Source: Bradyrhizobium sp. CB3481 (GTDB lineage Bacteria; Pseudomonadota; Alphaproteobacteria; Rhizobiales; Xanthobacteraceae). From it: a stretch of 64,000 nt of DNA. Positions 5,903 through 38,525 of the stretch are shown here, one piece after another. Where the stretch lies: NCBI RefSeq assembly GCF_029714305.1, contig NZ_CP121647.1, positions 1,694,501 through 1,758,500 on the forward strand. Reading direction: 5' to 3'. Made by a program: the position numbers and the translations under genes. Each line of letters opens with the position of its first letter. Within the stretch, counting starts at the first letter, position 1. Below the pieces are notes generated by a model that had not been told where the DNA came from, did not search any database, and saw only the letters and a list, made by a program, of their open reading frames with translations.

Positions 5903-6601
5903 ATGCGTTTTCTTTCCTGGGGGATTGTTGCCGCTTGCGGCTTCTTGTTGGCAGGTCCGGCGGCCAAGGCGGCCGACATGCGTGTTCCGGACCTGCCATC
6001 GCCCTCCTACAACTGGACCGGCTTTTATGCGGGTATCTACGGCGGCGGCGGGTATGCGGCCTGGGCTGCCGACTACTGCCGAAACGGCGGGTGCCGTCAT
6101 TCGGAAGGGCAGGCGAGCGGCTTCGCGGCCGGTGTCTATGGCGGCTACAATCACCAGTTCGCCAACCGCTTTGTGATCGGCGGCGAGTTCGAGTGGGGCA
6201 AGTCCTCCTCGTCGCGCGATGAACTGATTTTTGGCGACAGCGCCCTGCTGTCGAGTTTCGGCGCGTTCGGTGCGGCCCGTTTGCGCGCCGGCTACGCGTT
6301 CGACCGTCTGCTGGCGTATGGCGCCGTCGGTGTCGGCGTGGCCACTATCGGCAACGGCTACCGCCATACGGTGCAGAAGGGATGCGACACCGTGCAGGAG
6401 ATGATCTGGGACGAGCAGGTCAAGGCCGGGCTGGTCGTGGGCGGCGGCTTCGAATACGCCTTCACAAAACATTTCGTCGGACGCGGCGAATATCTCTACG
6501 CCGATTATGGCAGTGTCACGCTATCCGGCAAGGACCGCACCCGAACCGAATTCCGCAACGAGATGCACCGCGTGCGCGTCGGCGCCAGCTACAAGTTCTG
6601 A
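5903..6601 (+). CDS. outer-membrane beta-barrel protein (Omp25/Omp31-like)
   Basis: A 232-residue secreted protein. Residues 1-23 are a Sec signal peptide with a hydrophobic core (GIVAACGFLLAGPA) and a cleavage motif AKA-AD. The mature N-terminus (YNWTGFYAGIYGGGGYA) is the hallmark of the rhizobial/Brucella Omp25/Omp31-like family, followed by alternating beta strands with Gly and aromatic residues. The chain ends in Phe (RVRVGASYKF), the usual beta-barrel assembly signal. It probably forms an 8-stranded structural barrel. ATG 5903 was chosen because TGAGG precedes it by about nine bases; ATG 5888 and GTG 5885 are in frame upstream. Confidence 0.85.
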   Translation: MRFLSWGIVAACGFLLAGPAAKAADMRVPDLPSPSYNWTGFYAGIYGGGGYAAWAADYCRNGGCRHSEGQASGFAAGVYGGYNHQFANRFVIGGEFEWGKSSSSRDELIFGDSALLSSFGAFGAARLRAGYAFDRLLAYGAVGVGVATIGNGYRHTVQKGCDTVQEMIWDEQVKAGLVVGGGFEYAFTKHFVGRGEYLYADYGSVTLSGKDRTRTEFRNEMHRVRVGASYKF

Positions 6602-6670
6602 TATCTGGGCGCAGAGGATCCGGCAGCGGCAGGCTGCCGGATCGTCGCGCTTGCCTTTCCGAGCGTCCTA

Positions 6671-7657
6671 TTATCCGTGTGGCGCGGTAATCGCCTTGCG
6701 GATCGCGGCAAGCGGCGCGGCGTCGTCGAACTCGATGTCTTCGCCGATCCGCTTCAATCCGAGCTCGCGCCATAGTGCTGCAAGGTCCGGCGTCACCGAT
6801 CTTGGTCCCATCTCGCCGTGAAGGCGGGTCAGCACATCGACGCCGACGGCCTTATCGGCGGTTGAGAGAATGCGCTCGATCGACCAGTCCTGCTCGTGAT
6901 TGCCGCCGGCGGCGAGCACGCCGCGCATCGCGTCCTGCAGGCCGAGGCGATTATTCGTAGCCTTGCGGATTTCGATATCGGCGAGCAGGCAGAACATGGC
7001 GCCACCCCAATATTTCCGTCCCCAGGTGGGGGTGTTGTCGAGGCCCTCGTCGCCGGCTTGCGGCAGTCCCTTCGGCATGTCGCGCATCATGGCCTGCCAG
7101 ATTTCCCGCGCCGGCAGGTCGCCGGCCTGCACCCGCGCGACCGGCTCGATATAGACGGCCAGCCCTTCCGACAGCCAGGCGTAGCGATCGGGCATGTCGG
7201 GCAGGGCGGTATGCACCATCTCGTGCACCATCACCCAGTCGCGGTGCAAAACCTCTTCCGTCGAATCGCGGCCGAGCGGAATGCGGATGGCGGCGCCGCC
7301 ATAGCCCCACGTCGTGCCGCCGCGAATGCGCGCGCCATCGACGGGCACCAGCAGCAGCCGCAGCGAGTTGACCGGAAAGCGCCCGTAATAGGTCGTGACC
7401 GCGCGGGCCGACATCCTGATCCAGTCGAGCAGTTTTTCCCGTGGCAACGCCGTCTCGCCCGGCGCAAAGGCGACGTGGATGGTGCCGCCGCCGATTTCGA
7501 GATCGGTCTTGGGCAGCCGGTCGAACGCGTCATAGGGCATGCGGCCGCCGCGCATATATTCCGACTGCGCGTCGGCGCGGAACGAGATCGTGCCTGCCAG
7601 CATCGCGGCAATGACCGCGCTGGCCATCGTCCAGCGAATGGCGCCGGCGGTTTTCAT
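6671..7657 (-). CDS. secreted HExxH zinc metallopeptidase, last gene of bufferin-like operon
   Basis: A 328-residue protein with an N-terminal signal peptide (about residues 8-30, ending FRADA-QS), so the enzyme should act in the periplasm or be lipid-free and secreted. It carries H145-E-M-V-H149 and, 15 residues on, E164 in WLSEGLAVY, the arrangement of gluzincin (M61/M1-like) zinc peptidases. I could not assign a named family. Its ATG overlaps the stop of the creatininase-family gene by four bases (ATGA, 7654-7657), and it ends the chain that begins with the precursor peptides. This suggests it could mature or degrade those secreted Cys-rich peptides, which is inference. It converges with the outer-membrane protein gene. 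Confidence 0.8.
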   Translation of the reverse strand: MKTAGAIRWTMASAVIAAMLAGTISFRADAQSEYMRGGRMPYDAFDRLPKTDLEIGGGTIHVAFAPGETALPREKLLDWIRMSARAVTTYYGRFPVNSLRLLLVPVDGARIRGGTTWGYGGAAIRIPLGRDSTEEVLHRDWVMVHEMVHTALPDMPDRYAWLSEGLAVYIEPVARVQAGDLPAREIWQAMMRDMPKGLPQAGDEGLDNTPTWGRKYWGGAMFCLLADIEIRKATNNRLGLQDAMRGVLAAGGNHEQDWSIERILSTADKAVGVDVLTRLHGEMGPRSVTPDLAALWRELGLKRIGEDIEFDDAAPLAAIRKAITAPHG

Positions 7658-8463
7658 CGGGGCAAATTGTGCATTGTGGTCGCCCGGTGCGCATCGGGCT
7701 CCTGTCCAACGAACGCTGCAGCCTGTTCATGCAGATCGTCGAGCATGGCGGCGAGCAGGGCTTCGCCCTTGGCAGCCGTCGCCCGCGTCGGATCGCCAAA
7801 GCTGCCGGAGCGGCTGTAGTTCGGCGAATCCGGATCTGATGGCGTCAACTGCCCCGGGGTCTCCTCGTCGAGCGTGGGGCTGGCTTCGGCGCGCGTCATA
7901 TCGACCAGATGCGGCGCTATTGCCAGCATCAGCGAGGTTTCCATCTCGTCGGCATGGCTGCCATGGCTCTGCTCGGCGAGCTGCCGGGCGACGCGCGGAT
8001 AGCGCGGGCCCTCGTGGATCCACAAATGCCTGATCCGCGCGGCGTCGAGCCGCGCCAGCGCGCGATCGACCGGTGCCAGGGTGCTGATCCCGGTATTGAG
8101 CACGACCAGCTTGCGGCATCCGCCATCGAGAATCTGTCCCGCAACCTCGCGCACCAGCGCCTCGAAGGTCGCAATCGACAGGCTGCTGCTGCCGGCATAT
8201 TCGACGAAGGCAGGGTAGTGGCCGTAGGTCAGCGTCGGCCAGACCAGCGCGTCGATCTTTTCCGCGATCTTGCCCGCGAGCCATTCCGCCTGGATGCGGT
8301 CGGTATTGAGTGGCAGGTGAAAGCCGTGCTCCTTGGCGGCGGCGCCGATCGGCAATATCCCCGCTGCGCCGTCCTTGATGCGGCGGGCGACCTCGTCCCA
8401 ATGCATGCGCTCGATGAAATGGCGATCGGTGTCTATTCCCATTCGCCGAGCGCTCCCCTTCAT
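7654..8463 (-). CDS. creatininase-family protein with altered metal site
   Basis: A 269-residue cytoplasmic protein of the creatininase (creatinine amidohydrolase) superfamily, which also contains the mycofactocin peptidase MftE. Visible family motifs are EHGFHLPLNTD (about residues 44-54), giving Glu, His and Asp metal ligands, and HADEMETS (about 168-175). The central motif normally reads N-G-H-x-x-N; here the aligned place reads VVLNTGISTLAP and has no His, so the metal centre must differ or be incomplete. The start at 8463 gives a 4-bp ATGA overlap with the DUF2063 gene, matching the other junctions of this operon; an internal ATG at 8442 has a better AAGGGGAG ribosome site. A role in precursor processing is a guess from context. 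Confidence 0.82.
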   Translation of the reverse strand: MKGSARRMGIDTDRHFIERMHWDEVARRIKDGAAGILPIGAAAKEHGFHLPLNTDRIQAEWLAGKIAEKIDALVWPTLTYGHYPAFVEYAGSSSLSIATFEALVREVAGQILDGGCRKLVVLNTGISTLAPVDRALARLDAARIRHLWIHEGPRYPRVARQLAEQSHGSHADEMETSLMLAIAPHLVDMTRAEASPTLDEETPGQLTPSDPDSPNYSRSGSFGDPTRATAAKGEALLAAMLDDLHEQAAAFVGQEPDAHRATTMHNLPR

Positions 8464-9245
8464 GAGCTGACGGAAACATCCGTCAATAGTCCCGCCGTGA
8501 TCCAGCCGTGCAGATAGCCGGCGCCGCGGCCGGCCGCACCGTCAGGATCGTCATAGGTCGCAAGCATCTCGCAGAGCACGCCGAACGGAATGCCGTTTGC
8601 GGCCTCGTCCCACATCATCGCCTCTTCGGCAGACAGCTCGCGGAACATCGGCGTTGTGTCCTGGCGCCAGATCAGGAGATACGCAGGGTGCTCCAGCCCG
8701 GCGGCATCCGGCGGCGTTTCCTCGTTCTTCAACGCAAGCCAGATCGCCGCCGCATTGGTCGCGACGTCGAGCCTGGCGGTGCTGGGATGCGGCTTAAATC
8801 GGAGAACCGACCAGACCTCTGGCGCGAAGCCCGCCATGTCTGTCAGTTCGACCACCTTGCCTTCCGCGGCGTCGAACGCATCGTTGAGCGCCTTCTCCAG
8901 CGCCGCGAGATCGGACAATTCAGGGTGTTGAGCATAAGGTGCGGTCGATTTCAGAAATTCCGGCAGGCCCTGCGAGAACCAGCGCAGGTTCGGATGCGCG
9001 GATGGACGCGCCTTGACATAGGCATGTCCCATCTCGTCGAACATCTCGTCGCCGAGATAAAGATGCAGCAGTTCGTGGTCGTTGCGCATGGCCTCGACCA
9101 GCCGCGAGCCATAGGCGTAGCGGTAGACGCCGAACAGCACGTCGCGCTTTTCGCGGGGGCTGTCGAGAATCTCGGCCAGCGCCGTGTCGTCGCCGTCAAG
9201 GATGCCGCGCTGAAACTCGGCCTGCTGTCGCGCGAAGTCGCTCAT
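8460..9245 (-). CDS. bufC: DUF2063 family protein, BufC-like partner of the MNIO enzyme
   Basis: A 261-residue protein of the DUF2063 family (often labelled putative DNA-binding domain), almost always found beside DUF692. In the described bufferin and related MNIO systems the DUF2063/MbnC-type partner binds the precursor leader and delivers it to the iron enzyme. The N-terminus (MSDFARQQAEFQRGILDG) matches the usual start of the family. The open frame extends 56 codons upstream, but ATG 9245 forms an ATGA overlap with the stop of the DUF692 gene, so this start was chosen. No signal peptide, as expected of a cytoplasmic partner. The symbol is by operon context and family, not by proven orthology. 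Confidence 0.85.
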   Translation of the reverse strand: MSDFARQQAEFQRGILDGDDTALAEILDSPREKRDVLFGVYRYAYGSRLVEAMRNDHELLHLYLGDEMFDEMGHAYVKARPSAHPNLRWFSQGLPEFLKSTAPYAQHPELSDLAALEKALNDAFDAAEGKVVELTDMAGFAPEVWSVLRFKPHPSTARLDVATNAAAIWLALKNEETPPDAAGLEHPAYLLIWRQDTTPMFRELSAEEAMMWDEAANGIPFGVLCEMLATYDDPDGAAGRGAGYLHGWITAGLLTDVSVSS

Positions 9246-10147
9246 TCGGGCGGCGTGCCTGCGGGGAGGATTTTCTCGGCCATTTCGCGCGTCCTGGCTA
9301 CCTCGAGCAGGAGCTCTTCGAGCGGCGGGATGTTGTCGTCGCGCTCGATCATGGTCGAGACGCGGCCGAAGCGCCTTAGCGCCGCGGCATAGAGCTCCCA
9401 GACATCCTCGCACACCGGGTGATCATGGGTGTCGATGATGTGGGTGCCCATGTGGCTGTGGCCGGCCATGTGAAACTGCACCACGCGATCCGCCGGAATG
9501 CCGTTGAGAAAGGTCAGGGGATCGTAGCCGTGGTTGAAGGCGCTGACATAGACGTTATTGACGTCGAACAGCAGCCAGCATCCGGAGCGTTGCGACAGCT
9601 CGGACAGAAACTCCCATTCCGTCATTTCGGAATTGTTGAACTGGACATAAGTCGAGACGTTTTCGAGCACGATGGCGCGGCCGAGAAAATCCTGCACCAG
9701 TTGCACCCGGCTGACGACGTGACCCAGTGCTTCCCTGGTGTAGGGAATCGGCAGCAGGTCATGCAGGTTCTTGCCGTGCACGCCGGTCCAGCACAAATGG
9801 TCGGAGACCCATTTCGGCTCGACGCGACGGGCGAGATCCTTCAGGGCCTGCAGATATTCGAAATTCGGCGGTGCGGTGGAGGCGATCGACATCGACACGC
9901 CGTGCATCACGACCGGATAGCGCTCGCGAATGCGATCGAGCGTGCGCAGCGGTTGGCCGCCGGGCAGCATGTAGTTCTCGCTGATGACCTCGAACCAGTC
10001 GATCGGCGGATGGCCGCTGAGGATTTCATCGTAGTGCTGGTGACGCAGGCCGAGACCGAAGCCGAGGAAGGCCGGCTTCTCCGACGTCACCGGGCGATCT
10101 GCAAGCGGGGCCGCCGAGCTATCAGGCAATCTGCTTGCGACGTTCAT
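9242..10147 (-). CDS. bufB: DUF692 multinuclear iron oxidative enzyme (MNIO), BufB-like
   Basis: A 301-residue TIM-barrel protein of the DUF692/MbnB family, the multinuclear non-heme iron enzymes that modify Cys residues of ribosomal peptides using O2. Conserved stretches visible are FEVISENYM, VMHGVSMSIAS, SDHLCWTGVHG, ENVSTY, LLFDVNNVYVSAFNHG, FHMAGHSHMGTHIIDTHDH and IERDDNIPPL; the His, Asp, Glu and Asn residues in them match the metal-ligand pattern of the family. ATG 10147 was chosen because GGAGACGAG precedes it. It lies 112 bases behind the proximal precursor gene, separated by a GC stem-loop, and overlaps bufC by four bases. Predicted to act in the cytoplasm on the bufA-like precursors before export. 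Confidence 0.93.
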   Translation of the reverse strand: MNVASRLPDSSAAPLADRPVTSEKPAFLGFGLGLRHQHYDEILSGHPPIDWFEVISENYMLPGGQPLRTLDRIRERYPVVMHGVSMSIASTAPPNFEYLQALKDLARRVEPKWVSDHLCWTGVHGKNLHDLLPIPYTREALGHVVSRVQLVQDFLGRAIVLENVSTYVQFNNSEMTEWEFLSELSQRSGCWLLFDVNNVYVSAFNHGYDPLTFLNGIPADRVVQFHMAGHSHMGTHIIDTHDHPVCEDVWELYAAALRRFGRVSTMIERDDNIPPLEELLLEVARTREMAEKILPAGTPPE

Positions 10148-10223
10148 CTCGTCTCCGTCGAACGGCGCCGTCAAAAACCGGGCGGCGTCTCCAAATTATC
10201 ACGGCAACCTACCATGGAAGCGA

Positions 10224-10243
10224 GGCCCGGCCTACGCCGGGCC
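10224..10243 (-). terminator. GC stem-loop after the proximal precursor gene
   Basis: Perfect 8-bp stem GGCCCGGC / GCCGGGCC with a four-base loop, 17 bases behind the stop of the 85-residue precursor and upstream of bufB. There is no T run, so it is more likely a partial terminator or an mRNA-end stabiliser that keeps the enzyme level below that of the precursor. The same stem follows the other precursor (10671-10689). Confidence 0.65.
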
Positions 10244-10259
10244 CCGATCGAGCCGCGGC

Positions 10260-10517
10260 TCAGGACGGCTGGAACTTGCCCTTGGCGGCGTCGCACTTTT
10301 CCTTGGTCATGGCCGAGAAGCCCTGACCTTTGCAGGCGTTCTGGCCCTTACAGGCATTCGCGCCGCCCTTGCACGCGCTCTGGCCCTTGCAGGCATTGGC
10401 GCCGATGCATTTGCCTTCACCGGCAGCAAAGGTGACGGTCGACACGGTGGTGCCGGCCAGGAACAAGGTGGCAGCGGCGGCTGCCAGCGCGGCGCCGGAC
10501 TTGGATGTCATCTTCAT
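10260..10517 (-). CDS. bufA: Cys-rich secreted precursor peptide, BufA-like (proximal copy)
   Basis: An 85-residue peptide precursor. Residues 1-32 form a Sec signal peptide with an Ala/Leu core (AALAAAAATLFLAGTTVST). The mature part carries six Cys at 37, 43, 49, 56, 62 and 75 in four copies of a short module of the type ACKGQ (NACKGQSACKG, NACKGQNACKG). This is the layout of DUF2282/bufferin-type precursors, which after MNIO modification bind copper in the periplasm. ATG 10517 follows GGAGG at seven bases. The Cys spacing (6, 6, 7, 6, 13) is identical to that of the second copy 194 bases upstream, so the pair arose by duplication. The modified residues cannot be named from sequence. Confidence 0.9.
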   Translation of the reverse strand: MKMTSKSGAALAAAAATLFLAGTTVSTVTFAAGEGKCIGANACKGQSACKGGANACKGQNACKGQGFSAMTKEKCDAAKGKFQPS

Positions 10518-10670
10518 TTGTATCCTCCAAGAGAAGTTAAGAGGGTGCACCGCCCGTAAGCAGCGACAGATCCAGCCGACAAACGGCACCCGGAGAAAGC
10601 TACGCGGCGGGTTCGGATTAAGTTACAGGCGCGGCCAACTTTATTTTAGCTGCCGGTGCCAAACAATGAA

Positions 10671-10689
10671 GGCCCGGCGGAGCCGGGCC
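10671..10689 (-). terminator. GC stem-loop after the distal precursor gene
   Basis: Perfect 8-bp stem GGCCCGGC / GCCGGGCC with a three-base loop, 21 bases behind the stop of the 87-residue precursor. The two arms are identical to those at 10224-10243. The next precursor starts about 150 bases further on, so read-through must occur, unless that gene has its own promoter. Confidence 0.65.
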
Positions 10690-10710
10690 CCCACGCCTTG
10701 GATCCGCCGA

Positions 10711-10974
10711 TCAGCCTTTGACGAACTTGGCGCCCATGGCGGCGCAAGCCTTTTCGGAAGTCGCCGAGAAACCCTGGCCCTTGCAGGCGTTCTGGCCCTT
10801 GCAGGCGTTCGCGGCGCCCTTGCAGGCGCTCTGGCCCTTGCAGGCGTTGCCGGCCATGCACTTGCCCTGGGCGGCGTTCGCCGGCGTCGACACCGTCGAT
10901 ACCACCGAGCCGGCGAGGAACAGGGTGGCGGCGGCAGCGGCAAGCGTCGCACCGGATTTGGAATTCAGCTTCAT
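10711..10974 (-). CDS. bufA: Cys-rich secreted precursor peptide, BufA-like (first gene of operon)
   Basis: An 87-residue paralogue of the next gene. Signal peptide at about residues 1-35 (TLAAAAATLFLAG core, ending ANA-AQ), then a mature region with Cys at 39, 45, 51, 58, 64 and 77 and the same NACKGQSACKG / NACKGQNACKG modules. The two mature regions differ mainly near the N-terminus (GKCMAG versus GKCIGA) and in the last 20 residues. ATG 10974 is preceded by GAGGAG at about seven bases. It is the first gene behind the candidate ECF promoter and is predicted to be modified by the DUF692/DUF2063 pair, exported by Sec, and to sequester metal, probably copper. The metal is inferred from family knowledge only. 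Confidence 0.9.
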   Translation of the reverse strand: MKLNSKSGATLAAAAATLFLAGSVVSTVSTPANAAQGKCMAGNACKGQSACKGAANACKGQNACKGQGFSATSEKACAAMGAKFVKG

Positions 10975-11137
10975 GACGATCTCCTCGATCATTGTTAAGG
11001 ACAGGACGTCGCGAGCATCTGCTGATCGTTCGATCGCGGACCCCCACAACGCGAGCGATGTGACGGATGACAATTCGGTCACGGCGACCTGCCGGAGACG
11101 TCGGGCCTTCGTGATCGAGTGCTCATCCAGAGCCAGC

Positions 11138-11163
11138 TACGGGGCATCAGGCGATTTGGTTAC
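11138..11163 (-). promoter_or_regulatory. candidate ECF-sigma promoter of the bufferin-like operon
   Basis: Read on the minus strand the sequence is GTAACC (11163-11158), 16 bases, then CGTA (11141-11138). This closely resembles the GTAACC-N16-CGAA type of element described for the ECF factor SigF that controls DUF692 operons in Caulobacter, and CGTA is a common ECF -10. It would give a 5' leader of about 155 bases. The 381-base gap 10975-11355 holds this element, an A/T-rich patch at 11170-11192 just upstream of it, and no gene that I can support. Confidence 0.55.
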
Positions 11164-11355
11164 AGAGTTTCAAAAGAAAATTTTCTTTTTTTGCGGTTGG
11201 GCATCCCGTCCATGTCTAACCCCGGGGCCCTTGAGAGTATTTCGTTGCGCGGTGCCGTGACCTTCGGCGCGCGTCGCGCGCAAAGAAACCGCGACGCTTC
11301 AACGGATTAGCCCGGATACCTACGACAGTTGCGTTGCAGAACGGATCAGCTTGAA

Positions 11356-13140
11356 TTACCCGCGCGCCGGCTTCAGCTTTGCCATCTGCGCGACGGTGGC
11401 CCGAAGCTCCTCGGCGTTGAACGACGGAAACGAGCAGATGCGGTTGCTGCAGGCGAAGGCTGCGGGCTCGCCGAGATCGGGATATTCGACGTCGGGGTTG
11501 GGCAGCTTGCCTTCACGCAGATCGAGCCATTCCAGGCGCTTGTAGCGGGCTGGAAGTGCGCGGCCGAGTGCGTGCAGGCTCTGGGCGCGGGCGTCGTCCT
11601 TGTGGCCGACGATGGTGATGTGGGTCGGCTCGACCGCGAGTTCTTCGTCGGCGAGCAGCACGCCGGGGAGGGGACGCATCATCCCGGCCGCGGCGCCCGC
11701 GAGGTAGCGCATCGCATGCGCCGCCTGTTCGCGATAGGTCTCGTTGCCAAAGTAACGGTTGAGCAGGTTCATGTAACGGCTCACCTGCACCTGGTCGTCG
11801 AGCAGCTTGGCGGGCTTGGCGAGCACGCCGGTCTTGCCTTCCGCCGTCTTCGAGGTGAAGAAGCCGCCGGCCTCATCGCGGAACGTCGCGACGAAATCGC
11901 CGGCCTTTGCGGCCCTCGCGAGCCAGTCGCGGTTTCCGGTCGCGGCATAGAGATCGATGAAGGCTTGGCCCATGGCGAGCGTGTCGCCGAGGAACGGGCC
12001 GCCGCGATCCTTCTCGCTATGACGGAAGCCGCCATCCGCCAGCGCGCGGTTGTCGACCACCCATTTTGCGGCGCGTTCGGCGATTGCCAGCGCCATGGCG
12101 TCGTTGGTGACGTTATAGTAGGCCGCAAGTCCCGATATTGCCCAGCCATTCTCCCGCGCATAGAGGTTCTTGTCGATGCGGGGCATGCCGAGCTTGCGCC
12201 GCTCGCTATCTGCGAGCGCGTAATATTTGTGCCCGTCGGTGTCGTGGTCGAGATCGGCGTCCTGGCTGACATAGAACGCGCCTTCGGGGCTAGTGAGGAA
12301 TTCCGCGAGATAGCGCTCGATGTCGCGCGCGGCGGCGAGATATTTCGGGTCCTTCCACAGCGCATAGGCCTGGCTGTACTGCCGGAGGTATTGCGCCTGG
12401 AACGACATGATCTTTTCGAAATGCGCCCGCGTCCAGGCGCCGCCTTCGGAATATTGATAGACGCCGCCCCAGACCGGATCGATCAGCGCGATGGCGGCGT
12501 CTAACGTCTGCCGGGCGCGCTTGATGGCGATGGCGTCGCCGGCCTCAGCGCGGGAGATCGCAAGGTCCATACTGTCGGCGTCGATATATTTCTGGTTCTC
12601 GCCCCAGCCGCCGAGCTTCTCCTCGTAGGATTCGTCAACGTTCTTCATGAGCGTCGCGCGCTGCTGCTTGTCGAGGAAAGCCGACGTCGACGGCTTGACC
12701 TCAAAGGCTTCGCCGACCGACGGTCCCGGGGAGGGATCATCGATGACGGCTTTGAGCAGCGCCTGCATCCGTTCCGGCTCGATATACCCCCTGATCTTGG
12801 CGATCTCGTTGCCATCAGGAGCGAACACGATGGTCGCCGGCCAGCCCCAGTCGCCATAGCGGCTCGACAGATCAGGGTTGGCGTCCTGGTCGACGCGAAC
12901 CGGCAGATATTTTTTCGCCAGCAATTCCTTCACCTTCGGATCGGCGTAGGTCGTCTTCTCCATGACGTGGCACCAGTGGCACCACACCGCTTCGAGATCG
13001 AGGATCACGAAACGTTTCTCGGCCTGCGCACGGGCAAACAGATCGTCGTCCCAGCCGCTCCATTTCGGTCCGTCCGCCGCGAACGACGGCGAAGCCGCGA
13101 GCGCGGCGAGGGCAAGGGCGGCGATGCGGACGAGTTTCAT
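11356..13140 (-). CDS. secreted thioredoxin-fold DUF255 protein (YyaL/SPATA20-like)
   Basis: A 594-residue protein with a signal peptide (residues 1-21, ending SFA-AD). The thioredoxin-like domain follows at once and holds the typical DUF255 active site W-C-H-W-C-H at about residues 53-58, with the cis-Pro region WPATIVF near 100. The rest is an alpha/alpha-barrel like that of glycosyl hydrolases (WGGVYQY, GGFRHSEKDRGGPFLGD). Most DUF255 proteins are cytoplasmic and longer; this one is a shorter exported form, so it probably handles thiols or disulfides in the periplasm. It lies 56 bases behind doxX and upstream of the Cys-rich bufferin-like peptides, which makes a role in their oxidation or folding conceivable. 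Confidence 0.85.
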   Translation of the reverse strand: MKLVRIAALALAALAASPSFAADGPKWSGWDDDLFARAQAEKRFVILDLEAVWCHWCHVMEKTTYADPKVKELLAKKYLPVRVDQDANPDLSSRYGDWGWPATIVFAPDGNEIAKIRGYIEPERMQALLKAVIDDPSPGPSVGEAFEVKPSTSAFLDKQQRATLMKNVDESYEEKLGGWGENQKYIDADSMDLAISRAEAGDAIAIKRARQTLDAAIALIDPVWGGVYQYSEGGAWTRAHFEKIMSFQAQYLRQYSQAYALWKDPKYLAAARDIERYLAEFLTSPEGAFYVSQDADLDHDTDGHKYYALADSERRKLGMPRIDKNLYARENGWAISGLAAYYNVTNDAMALAIAERAAKWVVDNRALADGGFRHSEKDRGGPFLGDTLAMGQAFIDLYAATGNRDWLARAAKAGDFVATFRDEAGGFFTSKTAEGKTGVLAKPAKLLDDQVQVSRYMNLLNRYFGNETYREQAAHAMRYLAGAAAGMMRPLPGVLLADEELAVEPTHITIVGHKDDARAQSLHALGRALPARYKRLEWLDLREGKLPNPDVEYPDLGEPAAFACSNRICSFPSFNAEELRATVAQMAKLKPARG

Positions 13141-13196: not shown

Positions 13197-13694
13197 TCAG
13201 GCTTTCGCCGATGTCACGGGATTGTGAGTGTCAGTCGCGGCTTTGGGCCGACCGCTGGCATTCAGCAGCAGCCGATCCAGCGAGGCGGCGCCAGGACCTG
13301 CGATGGCGAGCCACATGAAGCCGGCGAAGTAGGTCGCCTCCTCGAAGCCGAGCAGGGTCTCCAGCGAATCGACGTCGCCCCATTTCGCCGACCTGATGGC
13401 GACGACCATCACCACCGCCAGCATCGCGGCCGGAATGCGGGTGAACAGGCCGAGGATTAGCATGATGCCGCCGAAGAATTCGACGGATGACACGAAGGGG
13501 GTAAGGATATTGGGAAACGGGATGCCCCAACCGATAAAGTTTTCCGTCACTTGCGCCAGATTGTTGAGCTTGCCCCAGCCCGCCAGCATGAAGGTGTAGC
13601 CGACGATGAGACGCATGATCAGGGGACCGGCCCAGGAAAAATGCGAGGCGATCCGCGCGGGCAGCGAAATAAGAAGATTGATGATGAAATGCAT
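13197..13694 (-). CDS. DoxX family membrane protein
   Basis: A 165-residue inner-membrane protein with four hydrophobic helices and the DoxX-type motif RLIVGYTFMLAGWGKL near residue 28. DoxX proteins are subunits or relatives of thiosulfate:quinone oxidoreductase and are often found beside DUF692/DUF2063/DUF2282 operons, where they are thought to take part in thiol or metal stress defence. ATG 13694 has a very strong ribosome site (GGAGGGGAG). It stands between ccdA and the DUF255 gene on the same strand, all facing towards the bufferin-like operon, so a shared redox function is likely, although the electron donor is unknown. Confidence 0.88.
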   Translation of the reverse strand: MHFIINLLISLPARIASHFSWAGPLIMRLIVGYTFMLAGWGKLNNLAQVTENFIGWGIPFPNILTPFVSSVEFFGGIMLILGLFTRIPAAMLAVVMVVAIRSAKWGDVDSLETLLGFEEATYFAGFMWLAIAGPGAASLDRLLLNASGRPKAATDTHNPVTSAKA

Positions 13695-13843: not shown

Positions 13844-14575
13844 TCAGCCGAAATTTTGCAGGGCCGGGAACGTCTCAAGCAGCCAGATACTGACGTTGGA
13901 GACGGCACCGGTCAGGAAGCCAATACCGGTGATCACCATCAGCACGCCCATGGCATGCTCGACCTTGCCGAGGTGCCGTTTCATTCGCGCAAACAGCGAG
14001 GAGAACTGCTCGATCATGAAGGCCGCCAGCAGGAAGGGGATTCCGAGCCCGGCGGAATAGACCGCGAGCAGGCCGGCGCCCTTGGCGACGGTGGCCTCGG
14101 CCGCCGCAATCGACAGGATCGCGGCCAGAATCGGACCGATGCAGGGCGTCCAGCCGAAGGCGAAAGCCAGCCCCATGGCATAGGCGCCCCACAGCCCGAC
14201 CGGCTTGGGCATCGGCATCCGGCCTTCGCGCATCAACAGGCTGATCCGGGTCAGGCCGAGAAAGTGCAGGCCCATGATGATGATCACGATGCCGGCCAGG
14301 ATCGAGAGCTGCGCCGACCAGGCCCGGATCAGGCCGCCGATCAGGGAAGCACTGGCGCCGAGCGCCACGAACACCGTGGAAAAGCCGAGCACGAACATCA
14401 GCGCCGAGGTCATGACGGCGCGCTTGGAGGCCTCTGAGGTCTCGTCATTGGCGACATGCTCGATGGTCGCGCCCGTGAGGTAGATCAGATAGGGCGGCAC
14501 CAGCGGCAGAACACAGGGGGACAGGAAGCTGACAAGACCGGCAATCAGGGCCGCCGGGATGGAAACATCGTGCAT
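13844..14575 (-). CDS. ccdA: cytochrome c biogenesis protein CcdA-like, thiol electron carrier
   Basis: A 243-residue polytopic membrane protein of the CcdA/DsbD transmembrane family with six predicted helices. The two redox Cys are visible as FLSPCVLPLVPPY (C21) and FGWTPCIGP (about C133), each in the Pro-flanked context of the family. It moves reducing equivalents from cytoplasmic thioredoxin to periplasmic thioredoxin-like proteins, normally for haem ligation to apocytochrome c or disulfide reduction. The start at 14575 (AAGGTC upstream) leaves a compact N-terminus; the longer frame upstream is polar. It is the first gene of the leftward ccdA-doxX-DUF255 series and is divergent from the cyclase gene. 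Confidence 0.9.
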   Translation of the reverse strand: MHDVSIPAALIAGLVSFLSPCVLPLVPPYLIYLTGATIEHVANDETSEASKRAVMTSALMFVLGFSTVFVALGASASLIGGLIRAWSAQLSILAGIVIIIMGLHFLGLTRISLLMREGRMPMPKPVGLWGAYAMGLAFAFGWTPCIGPILAAILSIAAAEATVAKGAGLLAVYSAGLGIPFLLAAFMIEQFSSLFARMKRHLGKVEHAMGVLMVITGIGFLTGAVSNVSIWLLETFPALQNFG

Positions 14576-14774
14576 TGCATGACCTTCAAGAACCGTCGCA
14601 AGGCATAGCGCCCTCTTGGCTAGTACGGAACAGCCAATCGATAAGTTTCGCCGGCATTGCGGCTCAAGTTCGGTCACAGAGCCGTGTCCGGGCGGCGGAA
14701 TTTGGCCTCGCCGGCGAAACAGACGCTGCTATGGTCGCGTATTACGGTCACCAACCCGCGATTTTGGACCCCGC

Positions 14775-17918: not shown

Positions 17919-19946
17919 CTATGGTGGGTCTACATTGCCGCGCCCCCGTTTTTGTTTCTCTCTTATCGTGCTCGGGGGGTGCTGCGCCGCTGGGATCGGC
18001 GGATCCGCCACGTGCCGCGCCAGTTGCGGGGCGGCGGCGCTGGTGCCTTTGAGCCGGAATACGGCACCGCTTCGGTTGCCGCCGGCGCGTATGCCTCCAA
18101 GCGCATAGGATTCATCGCAAGGCAACACGACATCGGGACCAACGCGGAGCGGCGAGGCAGGAGCATCGCGCGCAGGGCCAGCCGATGAGTAGGCCGACTT
18201 GCGCTGGTTTGCGATAACGAAGCCACCGGCGACGTGAATTCTCGCGCGTTTGGCGCTAGCAATTCCATTGAGCGTGCCGAAGCGCTTGATCAGCGAACTG
18301 GCTTTGTCGAATTCCCCGCCGGAATATTTGCAACTGGCGCTGGCCGAATGCCGCTGTTCCCAGTTCGGATCGACGAAATATGAACGCTTGGCGCGCGTGC
18401 GCACGCCCATGTTGGGATCACTGCGCGCGACATAGGCATGGACGTGCGCGTTGACGCCAATCTCGGTGATTTTGATTTTCCAGTCGCCATGCTCGGCGAT
18501 CTCGATGTTGGTCGTGGGGTTCGGTGGGACAATGGTGGGTTCGACCTGAAGCCGCCACATCGTGTTTTCACCCCGGACCACCGGTTCGTCCACGCCCGCC
18601 GGCGGAAGAATGGGCGGCGGCTGTGGCGGCGGAGGCGTCGGTTCATAAACAGGAAGTCCGCTGGGCGGCGTAAGGGTGATCTTTGCATCCAGAGCGGCTG
18701 CAGTCTCCATCCATATCTCTGCAAAGCAGAGCACCGAGTTGTCAGGAGGGAGGCGCCAGACCCATTCCACGGAGTCGGGGTCTGCAGCAGTGCGTCTAGT
18801 GAAGCTAACGTGTCCCTCGCTGAAATAGGCGTTTCCCGCCGCCAGAACGATTTCAAGCTTGGGTTTTCCCTGAGTGCCGTCGAACTGCGCGATCAGCGCG
18901 TTCAATTGTTCTTCCAGTAGCGCTGTGCCGTCGTGCGGTCCTGTGGTTGGCCCATAGCTGAGGTTGACAATCACTCTCTTGGTCACGTTCGGCTTGGCAA
19001 ATGACAGGATGTACTGGATACCTTCGACGACATAGTCCTTGAGCCAAACTCCGGTTGCATCACGGATGCACTCGTCCGAGAACTGCACGAACACAACGTC
19101 CGCATTGGCGGCAAGATCGACGCCCGGTTTCCAACTCGGCGGATCGCGCCGCTTACGCGCGGGACCGACACGTGAAGAGGTCGGGATCCGTCCCGCGAAC
19201 ACGTCGATCACGTGTCCGCCATGAGACGCCCGGCGCGCAAGAGTGGTAAAACCGGCGTCCGCGTAACAGCCATCCTCGTCGATGACGTGCGATGGGCTCG
19301 AATGCATTTCGATCCATTCATTGAGTCCGATCTGAGTGGACCCTGAAGGGAGATCGCGCCGGTATTCGACACCGAAGCCGAAATCGGACGGCTCCTGCCC
19401 GAATTTCTGATTCGCGCTGATCGTGACCGGTTGCTTGTCTCTGTTCTGATCCCAGATGCCCCGCACTCGTGTAGTATGACTGCCGTTTGCCCCGGTTGCG
19501 AGAAATTGCGCGGCGGCGAACGGGCAGCCATCGTCAAGAACACCGATCAGAAGTTCTTTGGCTCCTTCGAAGCGTGGGGTGATGGCTCTTAACTTCGTGA
19601 AATCCTCTAATGATGAAGTTTTCAGCGGAAGCGACAGTTCGACCCTGCTGACTAAGTCGTTCCAGATTGTGATGGCGTCATTGTCGAGTACGGCCCGCTT
19701 GCTGGCGCGCATCGTGACATACCGAGTAGCATCGACGTGGGGGAAATGGTCGCGGAACTGAGGGCCGAGCGCCGCGTCGAACCTGGCCATTTTTCTTGCA
19801 AATTCTGCAACTTTCTCGGCTTGAAAGAGCTCTACAAGGAGGAGCAGCGCAAACTGCTCCTCGTCGAAGGCTTCGAAATTCCTGAAGTCGGTCGAGATCG
19901 CATAGCGCAAGTATGGTTCATAGCAATCTGGGTATTGTTCGAGCAT
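17919..19946 (-). CDS. subtilisin-like S8 serine peptidase
   Basis: A 675-residue peptidase of the S8 family without a recognisable signal peptide. The catalytic triad can be traced: Asp in IGVLDDGCPF (about 138), His in ASHGGHVIDVFAG (about 242, with G-G in place of G-T) and Ser in LKGTSAAAP (about 636). The oxyanion Asn is in VLAAGNAYFSEG. Between these lie long insertions, including a Pro-rich linker (about residues 460-475) and a beta-rich domain. About 140 residues precede the Asp. ATG 19946 has GGAG eight bases upstream. It is 38 bases behind the PAP2 gene on the same strand. Composition is less GC-rich than the core genes, pointing to an acquired island. Confidence 0.87.
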   Translation of the reverse strand: MLEQYPDCYEPYLRYAISTDFRNFEAFDEEQFALLLLVELFQAEKVAEFARKMARFDAALGPQFRDHFPHVDATRYVTMRASKRAVLDNDAITIWNDLVSRVELSLPLKTSSLEDFTKLRAITPRFEGAKELLIGVLDDGCPFAAAQFLATGANGSHTTRVRGIWDQNRDKQPVTISANQKFGQEPSDFGFGVEYRRDLPSGSTQIGLNEWIEMHSSPSHVIDEDGCYADAGFTTLARRASHGGHVIDVFAGRIPTSSRVGPARKRRDPPSWKPGVDLAANADVVFVQFSDECIRDATGVWLKDYVVEGIQYILSFAKPNVTKRVIVNLSYGPTTGPHDGTALLEEQLNALIAQFDGTQGKPKLEIVLAAGNAYFSEGHVSFTRRTAADPDSVEWVWRLPPDNSVLCFAEIWMETAAALDAKITLTPPSGLPVYEPTPPPPQPPPILPPAGVDEPVVRGENTMWRLQVEPTIVPPNPTTNIEIAEHGDWKIKITEIGVNAHVHAYVARSDPNMGVRTRAKRSYFVDPNWEQRHSASASCKYSGGEFDKASSLIKRFGTLNGIASAKRARIHVAGGFVIANQRKSAYSSAGPARDAPASPLRVGPDVVLPCDESYALGGIRAGGNRSGAVFRLKGTSAAAPQLARHVADPPIPAAQHPPSTIREKQKRGRGNVDPP

Positions 19947-19984
19947 GGAACGATCTCCGCTGCGCGTATATCGGCAGGCTTCCT

Positions 19985-21211
19985 TTAAACCGGGACAGGA
20001 ACTCCAAATTTTCCGTACCACTCCGCCTCCGCTTTCCCCCATACGTAATTCATCAAAGAGGACTGAGTTACGTTTACTCCCATGGATTCAGAGTAGAATG
20101 GAGCTTGGTCGAGGTCCTGGCTCAGGAATGTGGACGTGGTCGGGCCGGTGTTGAACGGATTGAAATCCGTGGTGGCATGGCCATCAATTCCCCCAGCAAG
20201 GAACTTTCGGCTCATGAATTTTTGCTGACCAGTGCAACGCCCGACAAAGTACTCGCCCAGTGCTACGCCCAACATGCGTCCCGCCATGCTGTCGACAGGG
20301 AAATGGACGCCCGCTACAACACGGTTGGTTGCGATGCGTGCCGCCTGGCGGTTCAACTGTTCGGTCACCGTTGGGTATCCCGAGCTTGGCGGAGTGGTTT
20401 GCGGATTGAGTCTCAGAAGCGATTTTAGCACATGCGCGACTGCATGGACCTGCGTGGCGTGTCCGCTCGGGAATGATCCATGCCCTGGGGTGGTGATCAT
20501 CGGCTGAATCTCGGCGTTGTATTCGACCGGTCGCCAGCATGCCAAGGCATGCTTGAATCGCATCTCGACATACACGCAGAATTGCAACACCATGTTGATG
20601 AGTTCGAACGTGCGCTTGGTTCGGTCGGGATGCATGTAGACGATCGACGACCAGAAGGCATAGGTAGGATCGATCTGAGCCAAGATTTCGGTAGCCCGTT
20701 CGTTACGCAGTTCGGCCCAGCTGAGTACCATCGGGATTTGAGCCTCGAACGTCGATTTGTGCGGACGTTCGATTTCTGCGATCAACGTTGGGGAGCCGGA
20801 GGGCGATGCGGAAGAGAAGACCTGGAATCCAGTGTCCGTCGCGGGGGTTGTCGCCGTGTTTGTCGTTTTCTGAAAGCTGATGCCCTGCAGCATCTCGCCG
20901 ATCGCAGTATAAGCGCGAACCCAAGGCTCCCAGCGTTCAATTTCTTTTGGGTCGTCAACGACTGTCGGCAGCTCCGGCGAATAGTAGGCGGTGTCCGGAA
21001 CGACGATCGTCCCTTCGCGTCCAAGGATCAGCGCGTCCACCATGATCGAATTGGCGTAGGCATCGGCCATCGTGCCGAGGAATGATCCACCTGCGCCACC
21101 AGCTCCGCCCGCGCCACCGGCTCCGCCCGCTCCACCGGCACCGCCCGCTCCACCGGCGCCGCCAGCGCCACCGGCTCCGCCCGCACCACCTGCACCGCCC
21201 AGTTGAGCCAT
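19985..21211 (-). CDS. PAP2/vanadium haloperoxidase-fold protein with N-terminal GGA repeat
   Basis: A 408-residue protein. Residues 5-42 are an uninterrupted Gly-Gly-Ala repeat. The C-terminal half has the full PAP2 signature: K220-x6-R227-P228 (KHALACWRP), P247-S-G-H250 region (GSFPSGHATQ) and R297-x5-H303-x3-D307 (NRVVAGVHFPVD). These residues bind phosphate in acid phosphatases or vanadate in haloperoxidases, so the enzyme is either a secreted-type phosphatase or a bacterial haloperoxidase relative. There is no signal peptide. The long helical N-domain (residues 50-220) resembles the haloperoxidase subgroup. It lies just upstream of the S8 peptidase gene in the same direction. Which reaction it catalyses is open. 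Confidence 0.85.
   Translation of the reverse strand: MAQLGGAGGAGGAGGAGGAGGAGGAGGAGGAGGAGGAGGAGGSFLGTMADAYANSIMVDALILGREGTIVVPDTAYYSPELPTVVDDPKEIERWEPWVRAYTAIGEMLQGISFQKTTNTATTPATDTGFQVFSSASPSGSPTLIAEIERPHKSTFEAQIPMVLSWAELRNERATEILAQIDPTYAFWSSIVYMHPDRTKRTFELINMVLQFCVYVEMRFKHALACWRPVEYNAEIQPMITTPGHGSFPSGHATQVHAVAHVLKSLLRLNPQTTPPSSGYPTVTEQLNRQAARIATNRVVAGVHFPVDSMAGRMLGVALGEYFVGRCTGQQKFMSRKFLAGGIDGHATTDFNPFNTGPTTSTFLSQDLDQAPFYSESMGVNVTQSSLMNYVWGKAEAEWYGKFGVPVPV
21086..21199 (-). repeat. in-frame GGA-coding 9-bp repeat tract
   Basis: A 114-base tract of imperfect 9-bp units coding Gly-Gly-Ala, at the N-terminus of the PAP2 protein. Unit number could change by slippage without shifting the frame, so the tract is expected to vary in length between strains. 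Codons for Gly and Ala are mixed, so the DNA repeat is less perfect than the protein repeat. Confidence 0.9.
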
Positions 21212-37640: not shown

Positions 37641-37785
37641 GGTCGTCCTGTTACGTCTGCGGCCGCCGGTCCCCCGACTCGCCCCTTGCTCTCATGCTAC
37701 CCCGGCAGAAGCCGCAGGTCAGCAGGCGCGACAGACCGAATTGCGGCAGAACGGCCCGCTGGGCCGGAAGTGAAAAGAATAAAGT

Positions 37786-38100
37786 GGAGGCTTCTGTTGC
37801 CAGGTGCCTCCGAACCCCGCCTAGCGGAGCTTAACCCGCTAGGACTTTAGAGTGGTCTTTCAAACTGCGTTACGCAGCCTGAGCAACCGGAGCATAGTTG
37901 TCGTTTGCAACTATTGCATAGCCCGATAACGGCGGAACAATACCGGGAAAAAACTCGTCCTTTACGCCCTCGTCGATCCTGGTTCGCCCCCGCCGAAGCC
38001 CATCCCCGCAGGGTGGGCTTGGGTGGAGGCGCCGGGTACTGCCCCCGGGTCCGAATGGTTTATTGCGACGGTCATTTATTTCCATAGCCGGCGAACCGGC
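37786..38100 (-). ncRNA. ssrA: transfer-messenger RNA, permuted two-piece form
   Basis: Read leftward. The acceptor piece comes first: its 3' end at about 38022 has the T-arm CCGGG-GGCAGTA-CCCGG and the acceptor strand CGCCTCC plus discriminator A and CC. After a spacer that folds into a hairpin (arms AAGCCCA / TGGGCTT), the coding piece begins at 37991 with GGGGGCG, which pairs with CGCCTCC, and continues AACCAGGATCGACG. The tag frame runs 37908-37870 and codes ANDNYAPVAQAA followed by TAA, the alphaproteobacterial tag. Downstream are a CCTAGCGG/CCGCTAGG helix and a final GGAGGC/GCCTCC hairpin at 37786-37811, then a T-rich stretch. The 5' end of the acceptor piece is estimated (about 38095-38100); a possible -10 TATATT is at 38112-38107. 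Confidence 0.93.
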
Positions 38101-38525
38101 GCTCTCAATATAAGGCGCAAGGCCGCAGAAAAACAGGGCCCGAAAGCCTGAACGGGAGGGGAACACGGCCTGAACTTTCGCTTTGGTGTCGTCGAGTTGC
38201 GGTTTCGCCACGGACTCGACCATTGGCGCGTGCGGCTGGCTTGGAACGGGCTCTGAGCTGCATGAATTTTCGGCGCTCTGAAGCAGGACAGTATGCCGGA
38301 GGGGGCGGCCACGCGGGAGATATTGCGGCGCTGCAATCGCAAGGTTGCGAGCACCCGGCCCCGGGGCGGTTTCGATTACGGTCTTAAGGCGTCATTTGCC
38401 GTTCGGCCCAAAAGCATTTTTGGTTTTGCTGGCGTTGTCCGACGAAAGTCGCTAGCAAGTTTCCGGGACAAGCTTCCAAGTCATCCAAACAAGCGGGCGG
38501 AGCCGCCTTTGGGGGAGGAGTATCT
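38101..38525. other. intergenic region between ssrA and tctB
   Basis: About 425 bases that should hold the ssrA promoter (leftward) and the tctB promoter (rightward). Apart from the TATATT-like element at 38107-38112 and the tctB ribosome site GGGGAGGAG at 38512-38520, I see no gene or clear motif. An open frame reading leftward through the region is only the extension of the tmRNA tag frame. Confidence 0.5.

Follow-up and report, generated by a model that had tools for sequence, protein, structure and literature searches.

Does a copper-buffering peptide system carry a peptidase of its own? The question is raised by a locus of Bradyrhizobium sp. CB3481 that lies in the 64,000-nucleotide stretch analyzed here (contig NZ_CP121647.1, positions 1,694,501 to 1,758,500; hereafter the window), in a genome that forms one contig of 8.04 Mb. 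The original prediction described six leftward genes, encoding two cysteine-rich secreted precursors, an MNIO enzyme of the DUF692 family, its DUF2063 partner, a member of the creatininase family, and an exported protein with an HExxH motif (hereafter the zincin). All six are indeed on the minus strand, at 6671-10974. Its matches to curated models mark the locus as a Bradyrhizobium bufferin cluster of the Buf2 type. We lean slightly toward reading it as a Buf2 bufferin system that has proteolytic and redox accessory genes dedicated to it, including a periplasmic peptidase that would trim or turn over the peptide. The zincin's linkage, co-occurrence, fold, and conservation are directly supported, and we infer its action on the bufferin.

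A Buf2-type cluster with additional genes

In the order of transcription, the genes of the locus are:

13844..14677, minus strand: CcdA-like membrane protein (DsbD_TM; PF02683, E 2.1e-14), an upstream neighbor kept in 34 of 40 relatives
13197..13694, minus strand: doxX, DoxX protein, HvfX-like, a core bufferin gene (PF07681, above cut-off; 36 of 40 relatives)
11356..13140, minus strand: DUF255/DsbH-type thioredoxin-like protein with a signal-like N-terminus and a CxxC motif, WCHWCH (PF03190, E 1.2e-21; 33 of 40 relatives)
10711..10974, minus strand: bufA2 precursor 1, 87 aa, predicted signal peptide, mature part with six Cys (NF050166, 76.9 bits)
10260..10517, minus strand: bufA2 precursor 2, 85 aa (NF050166, 82.1 bits)
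9242..10147, minus strand: bufB, MNIO bufferin maturase (NF050167, 387 bits, cut-off 310; PF05114)
8460..9245, minus strand: bufC, DUF2063 partner (PF09836, E 7.8e-17, above cut-off)
7654..8463, minus strand: non-canonical creatininase-family protein, likely true start 8439 (PF02633, E 1.6e-48; ligand comparison)
6671..7657, minus strand: zincin, predicted exported M1/M61-like gluzincin (signal-like N-terminus, HExxH motif, predicted fold)

Both precursors exceed the cut-off of the NCBIfam BufA2 model (60 bits), and since BufB and the DUF2063 protein match curated models as well, the bufferin-type cluster that had been predicted can be placed in the Buf2 type. The precursors are distinct paralogues: the C-terminus of one is usually FVKG or FVKS, and that of the other takes forms like KGKFQPS or KGKYMPS. 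Both keep six cysteines after the signal-like segment, and by family assignment the BufA2 peptides of this locus would carry cysteine-derived thiooxazoles and bind copper. The DoxX protein scores 67 bits against the HvfX model NF050144, under its cut-off of 80. Wherever the doxX, DUF255, and CcdA-like genes are present in the 40 fetched relatives their order is unchanged; together with ECF16-type promoter motifs upstream they belong to the locus, and the original prediction ended short of them. Purifying selection acts on six genes of the locus (median ratio of nonsynonymous to synonymous substitution rates, dN/dS, 0.09-0.21; BufB 0.092, zincin 0.173, creatininase 0.205).

The ATGA overlaps on which a single translation unit had been proposed are all three in the sequence (9242, 8460, and 7654), but that between bufC and the creatininase gene is probably not a true start. 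Codon 9 (8439), 20 bases past the bufC stop, is the probable start, because the homologues listed are mostly ~262 aa long and conservation is lacking in the eight residues that precede this Met.

As a separate observation, strain BTAi1 has, beside its main cluster and on the opposite strand, a further divergent pair of bufB- and bufC-like genes (42% and 26% identity; L132, 10351-11761).

Linkage of the zincin within Bradyrhizobium

Among 146 Bradyrhizobium genomes, BufB (counted at 82% identity or more) is present in 44, the zincin in 41, and the creatininase (65% or more) in 36; two marginal zincin matches (G058 and G077) were left out. In 40 of the 41 zincin genomes the gene shares a contig with BufB and comes immediately behind BufC or the creatininase, and in G033 zincin and creatininase are on a different contig from BufB. 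The expectation that the two extra genes accompany DUF692 and DUF2063 genes in related genomes thus holds within the genus. Three of the 44 BufB genomes have no zincin: in one the contig ends (G035), and two have neither extra gene (G101 and G127). Chance neighborhood is ruled out by the 40 loci fetched besides that of the window, 37 of which have the zincin and 32 the creatininase.

The zincin itself has no Pfam match at E 0.1 and no NCBIfam match at E 0.001. Residues H145, E146, and H149 of the HExxH motif and a downstream E164 are invariant in 37 aligned rows (the alignment, A2, used 36 of the 80 loci fetched in the wider scan described below, with L131, L155, and many near-identical loci left out). 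The structure model has a predicted local distance difference test score (pLDDT) of 90.4, and its best fold matches are M1/M61 peptidases. Fold, HExxH, and downstream Glu together point to an M1/M61-like gluzincin, one that differs from the gluzincin aminopeptidases of these families in having ~300 residues only and no Pfam match. Alignment residues 114-129, where the M1 exopeptidase anchor would be expected, hold no conserved Glu. A PDB sequence search with a 15-row zincin profile gave no match at E 1; with the single sequence, the search turned up weak repeat matches to SAKe6-named chains, four in number and none above 22.9 bits. The plasmid collection gave no zincin match at E 1e-5.

The zincin beyond the genus

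Of a set of 297 genomes from the order, 18 have the zincin, and 14 of these are outside the genus. It lies beside BufB/BufC in two of these 14 (both of genus g84, matched to Methylobacterium) and not in 12, one of which (G146) has BufB ~8.6 kb from the zincin. Outside the genus the proposed association is therefore looser: direct adjacency is the exception, but 10 of the 12 unlinked copies are in genomes that carry BufA2 above cut-off. BufA2 above cut-off is found in 37 genomes of the set, 16 of the 18 with a zincin versus 21 of the 279 without (P = 1.5e-14, Fisher's test), and, counted by genus, in 6 of 7 zincin genera versus 15 of 115 others (P = 8e-5), both P-values being inflated since related genomes are not independent.

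The same tendency is visible in 398 Pseudomonadota genomes. All 11 zincin genomes have a BufB match, 10 of them above the curated cut-off, the totals for the whole set being 145 and 110. The zincins of three of the 11 (G557, G570, and G748) are divergent, with 31-37% identity, and G570 has no BufA2 match.

Scanning the GTDB species genomes turned up 387 stretches that encode a zincin relative, of which we fetched the best 80. If linkage is defined as a BufB gene on the same strand at a distance of up to 6 kb, 53 of the 80 loci are linked. These include two Methylobacterium records, a Rudaea-labeled bin, a Rhodospirillales bin, and two Acidobacteriota bins (bin labels such as Rudaea may be wrong). 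The Rudaea-labeled bin has bufA2-bufB-bufC-DUF255-zincin in a row, with a precursor at 59.6 bits against the BufA2 cut-off of 60; in the Rhodospirillales bin the zincin open reading frame begins a few bases past bufC; and both Acidobacteriota bins have doxX at the linked locus, the precursor of one scoring 39 bits against the same cut-off. At one locus (L163) no precursor was identified.

When 37 zincins (17 linked, 19 unlinked, and one unlabeled) are placed on a tree, the linkage label needs four changes, three of them forced by supported branches, so linkage arose or was lost several times. The unlabeled sequence (L130) is from a short contig. Contigs of <8 kb (L096, L118, L130, L146, L153, L164, and L169) make some unlinked assignments uncertain; L096 and L118 were scored unlinked despite an adjacent creatininase, as were L160, with a 44% BufB match ~7 kb away, and L079, with a BufB match ~8.6 kb away. 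L118, a Novosphingobium-labeled contig of 3115 bases, has the order creatininase-zincin-ccdA-doxX, the same parts differently arranged.

Promoter motifs and other features of the window

The motifs and hairpins of the locus are:

11138..11164, minus strand: ECF16-type promoter motif TGTAACC-N16-CGTA, upstream of precursor 1 (pattern scan)
10655..10712, minus strand: hairpin 3' of precursor 1, a possible attenuator or 3' stabilizer (minimum free energy -32 kcal/mol, z -2.81, equaled or undercut by 0 of 200 shuffles)
10601..10627, minus strand: ECF16-type promoter motif TGTAACT-N16-CGTA, upstream of precursor 2
10205..10262, minus strand: hairpin 3' of precursor 2 (minimum free energy -32.3 kcal/mol, z -2.23, equaled or undercut by 6 of 200 shuffles)
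6600..6670, minus strand: hairpin 3' of the zincin gene, possible end of the unit (minimum free energy -33.1 kcal/mol, z -2.87, equaled or undercut by 1 of 200 shuffles)

The motif of precursor 1 is present in 34 of the 35 relatives that have this precursor, and that of precursor 2 is found in some form in 26 of 40. The ECF16 consensus is tGTAACc-N16-CGAA, with a close variant for Bradyrhizobium EcfF (PMC3420878; here and below, statements on cited papers refer to the accessible portions of their text). The locus motifs fit the consensus except in the last bases, the -10 part being CGTA, as the EcfF variant allows (PMC3420878). Exact matches to TGTAAC-N17-CGTA number seven in the 8.04-Mb genome, two of them at the locus, versus eight for the reversed control, so single matches mean little. 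The genome has one NrsF gene, preceded by a gene for an extracytoplasmic function (ECF) sigma factor (Pfam Sigma70_r2 and r4) with a similar motif upstream. This pair lies elsewhere in the genome, around position 2,674,000 of the contig, and no scanned gene of the locus is a sigma factor or NrsF. Counts of sigma-70-like and terminator-like elements are at shuffle level.

Elsewhere in the window we find an alphaproteobacterial tmRNA gene (37783-38139, minus strand; RF01849, 302.8 bits), which two overlapping models match and which is the only feature that Rfam models find in the window at their gathering scores. There is also a 707-aa open reading frame (17919-20042, minus strand), presumably subtilase-like from the look of its sequence, that has no Pfam match at E 0.001, and one of 408 aa (19985-21211, minus strand) with a long Gly-Gly-Ala repeat at its start and a PAP2 domain (PF01569, E 2.2e-11).

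Evidence weighing against a role in the bufferin system

Several observations count against a peptidase dedicated to the bufferin. Within Bradyrhizobium, the creatininase is absent from six of the 41 zincin genomes (G012, G020, G042, G108, G119, and G140), in which the zincin follows BufC, so the zincin is the steadier partner; G042 and G090 have just the first part of the zincin on the BufB contig, where the contig ends. The zincin is split over two frames in G028 (L023/L141), G120 (L022/L128), and L136 (B. tropiciagri SZCCT0338), and that of G120 also carries a stop, which may be decay or sequencing error. The median dN/dS values (zincin 0.17, creatininase 0.21) rule out genus-wide decay, the broken frames of these three relatives notwithstanding. 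The promoter-motif matches, taken singly, are no commoner than those of the reversed control, and the inflation of the P-values above belongs here too. Most bufferin genomes have no zincin (11 zincin versus 145 BufB genomes among the 398); bufferin as such thus does not require it. Conversely, two of the 18 zincin genomes of the order have no BufA2 above cut-off, G146 with a weak match and G333 with none.

One alternative is that the zincin is a general envelope peptidase, which shares the stress response of the bufferin (same regulon and niche) and does not act on it. Unlinked zincins occur in many taxa (27 of the 80 fetched loci), and in family f34 (seven loci) the gene is fixed between dihydroorotase-like and glutathione-transferase-like genes, named from their sequences; this stable setting away from bufferin genes suggests that the zincin may have a wider job. 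For five other unlinked zincins, four of 10 neighbors have Pfam matches, none to a bufferin family. A general envelope peptidase fits less well with the BufA2 genes carried by 10 of the 12 genomes with unlinked copies in the order, and with direct linkage in several lineages, and we consider it unlikely.

The creatininase relative

The creatininase-family protein scores 165.7 bits against PF02633 (cut-off 31.3), and its structure model has a pLDDT of 81.2. We take the metal ligands of Pseudomonas creatininase to be Glu34, His36, Asp45, His120, and Glu122. Compared with this enzyme as reference (PDB 3a6g and others), His36 and Asp45 alone are kept: Lys44 occupies the position of Glu34, and the NGHYEN loop that holds His120 and Glu122 is shortened to NTGIST. 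The subfamily is thus without three of the five ligands, and a paralogue in the same genome (L001) keeps the common form. Across 33 rows, ten residues do not vary (Lys44, His46, His49, Asp55, Gly125, Ser127, Thr128, His170, Glu173, and Glu175); outside these rows, L021 has Gln in place of Lys44. The active site is probably single-metal or non-catalytic. A canonical two-metal creatininase was rejected, since most of the metal ligands are missing, and creatininase-type hydrolysis before export is for that reason not safe to assume.

Might the protein, its metal site mostly gone, be a non-catalytic scaffold or regulator of BufB/BufC? The Lys at the Glu34 position, the shortened loop, and the location of the gene close behind bufC are consistent with this. 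The invariance of His46, Asp55, His170, Glu173, and Glu175 resembles a kept active site, however, and with the purifying selection on the gene it leaves the scaffold an improbable explanation.

The signature is not confined to bufferin loci. In G557 a creatininase with the same signature directly follows the distant zincin, away from that genome's bufferin locus. On a Nitratireductor plasmid (L212, 4989-5768) a creatininase with the signature GAAAKEHG/NTGVST, without His49, ends a row of oligopeptide ABC transporter genes, the last of which it overlaps by 4 bases. We therefore recognize a wider creatininase subfamily. At L210 (5289-7464), a distant zincin with an extra N-terminal part directly precedes a same-signature creatininase, away from the bufferin locus of its genome.

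The gene pair in G557 and the transporter row in Nitratireductor would suit a two-enzyme recycling pair, in which peptide fragments freed by the zincin in the periplasm would be dealt with in the cytosol by the creatininase-like protein. Against such a pair stand the missing metal ligands, the lack of a peptide transporter among the scanned genes of the locus, and the zincin loci that do without the creatininase (the six genomes above and four Methylobacterium loci). We regard the recycling pair, too, as rather improbable.

A tentative model

For the reading that we favor, a Buf2 system with its own proteolytic and redox set, the following sequence of events can be envisaged. Stress would free an ECF16-type sigma factor and, to judge from the promoter motifs, both precursor genes would be transcribed. 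If they act as their families do, BufB and BufC would oxidize core cysteines of BufA2 to thiooxazoles in the cytosol, after which Sec would export the peptides and signal peptidase would cut off the signal. In the periplasm the CcdA-like protein and the DUF255/thioredoxin-like protein may keep the remaining thiols reduced. The exported gluzincin, given its linkage and co-occurrence, may then trim the bufferin to its final form or degrade used, metal-loaded, or misfolded peptide. The cytosolic creatininase relative might be an optional partner, with the modified precursor (prior to its export) or released fragments as its possible substrate.

More specifically, an exported gluzincin, sometimes with a new creatininase-like hydrolase of reduced metal site, may process or recycle Buf2 bufferins; we put this forward tentatively, with some doubt. 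The maturation steps that had been proposed before and after export fare accordingly: the extra genes are conserved neighbors, and a part of either protein in maturing the peptide is putative.

If true, copper-buffering peptides made by MNIO enzymes would undergo a proteolytic step, of which the literature searched describes none, with linkage in Pseudomonadota and Acidobacteriota. A peptidase-like gene that tracks Buf2 precursors across the order, even when unlinked, makes it testable whether mature copper peptides are cut. The creatininase group would itself be informative as a case of an amidohydrolase fold that loses most of its metal site while under selection.

Comparison with known systems

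A creatininase homologue in a cluster for a ribosomally synthesized and post-translationally modified peptide (RiPP) is also found in mycofactocin biosynthesis, where MftE, in the accounts available, cleaves the RiPP precursor. Equivalence with MftE was rejected, the protein of the locus scoring 82.3 bits against a cut-off of 172 for the MftE model.

Peptidases have been described in other MNIO clusters. In biphenomycin-like MNIO clusters a linked metallopeptidase, PbsP, matures the peptide (PMC12257519); PbsP is TldD-type (HExxxH) and its product is a macrocycle, not a copper-buffering bufferin. One other MNIO-type cluster has a secreted prolyl oligopeptidase (PMC12636315). The captophorin and bulbicupramide clusters (PMC13097082, PMC12538549) share with the locus an MNIO and a DUF2063-type partner, and make thiooxazole copper peptides. 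According to the accessible text of PMC12538549, its cluster has no protease gene nearby, whereas the locus here has a linked peptidase-like gene, and PMC13097082, in the corresponding portion, leaves the digestion of EGKCG peptides undecided.

In Caulobacter, the ECF sigma factor SigF controls DUF2282-DUF692-DUF2063 operons, one with DoxX (PMC3511200); the precursors there are Buf1 (DUF2282) and here Buf2. Buf1 clusters contain sigma factor and NrsF genes and Buf2 clusters do not (PMC12452194).

The bufferin core consists of precursor, MNIO, DUF2063, and DoxX, with further conserved genes in extremely low proportions (PMC12452194). Creatininase and peptidase genes were correctly supposed to lie outside the standard description: neither is among these core genes, the strings "creatinin" and "peptidase" have no occurrence in the main text of that paper, and none of the open-access papers searched describes a creatininase or gluzincin with bufferins. 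With the Buf2 clusters (Buf_6/12Cys, BufA2) of PMC12452194 the locus has in common the six-cysteine signal-peptide precursor, which occurs in tandem there too, as well as MNIO, DUF2063, and DoxX. To this shared set it adds an exported putative gluzincin, a non-canonical creatininase relative, the DUF255/thioredoxin-like and CcdA-like genes, and ECF16-type promoter motifs.

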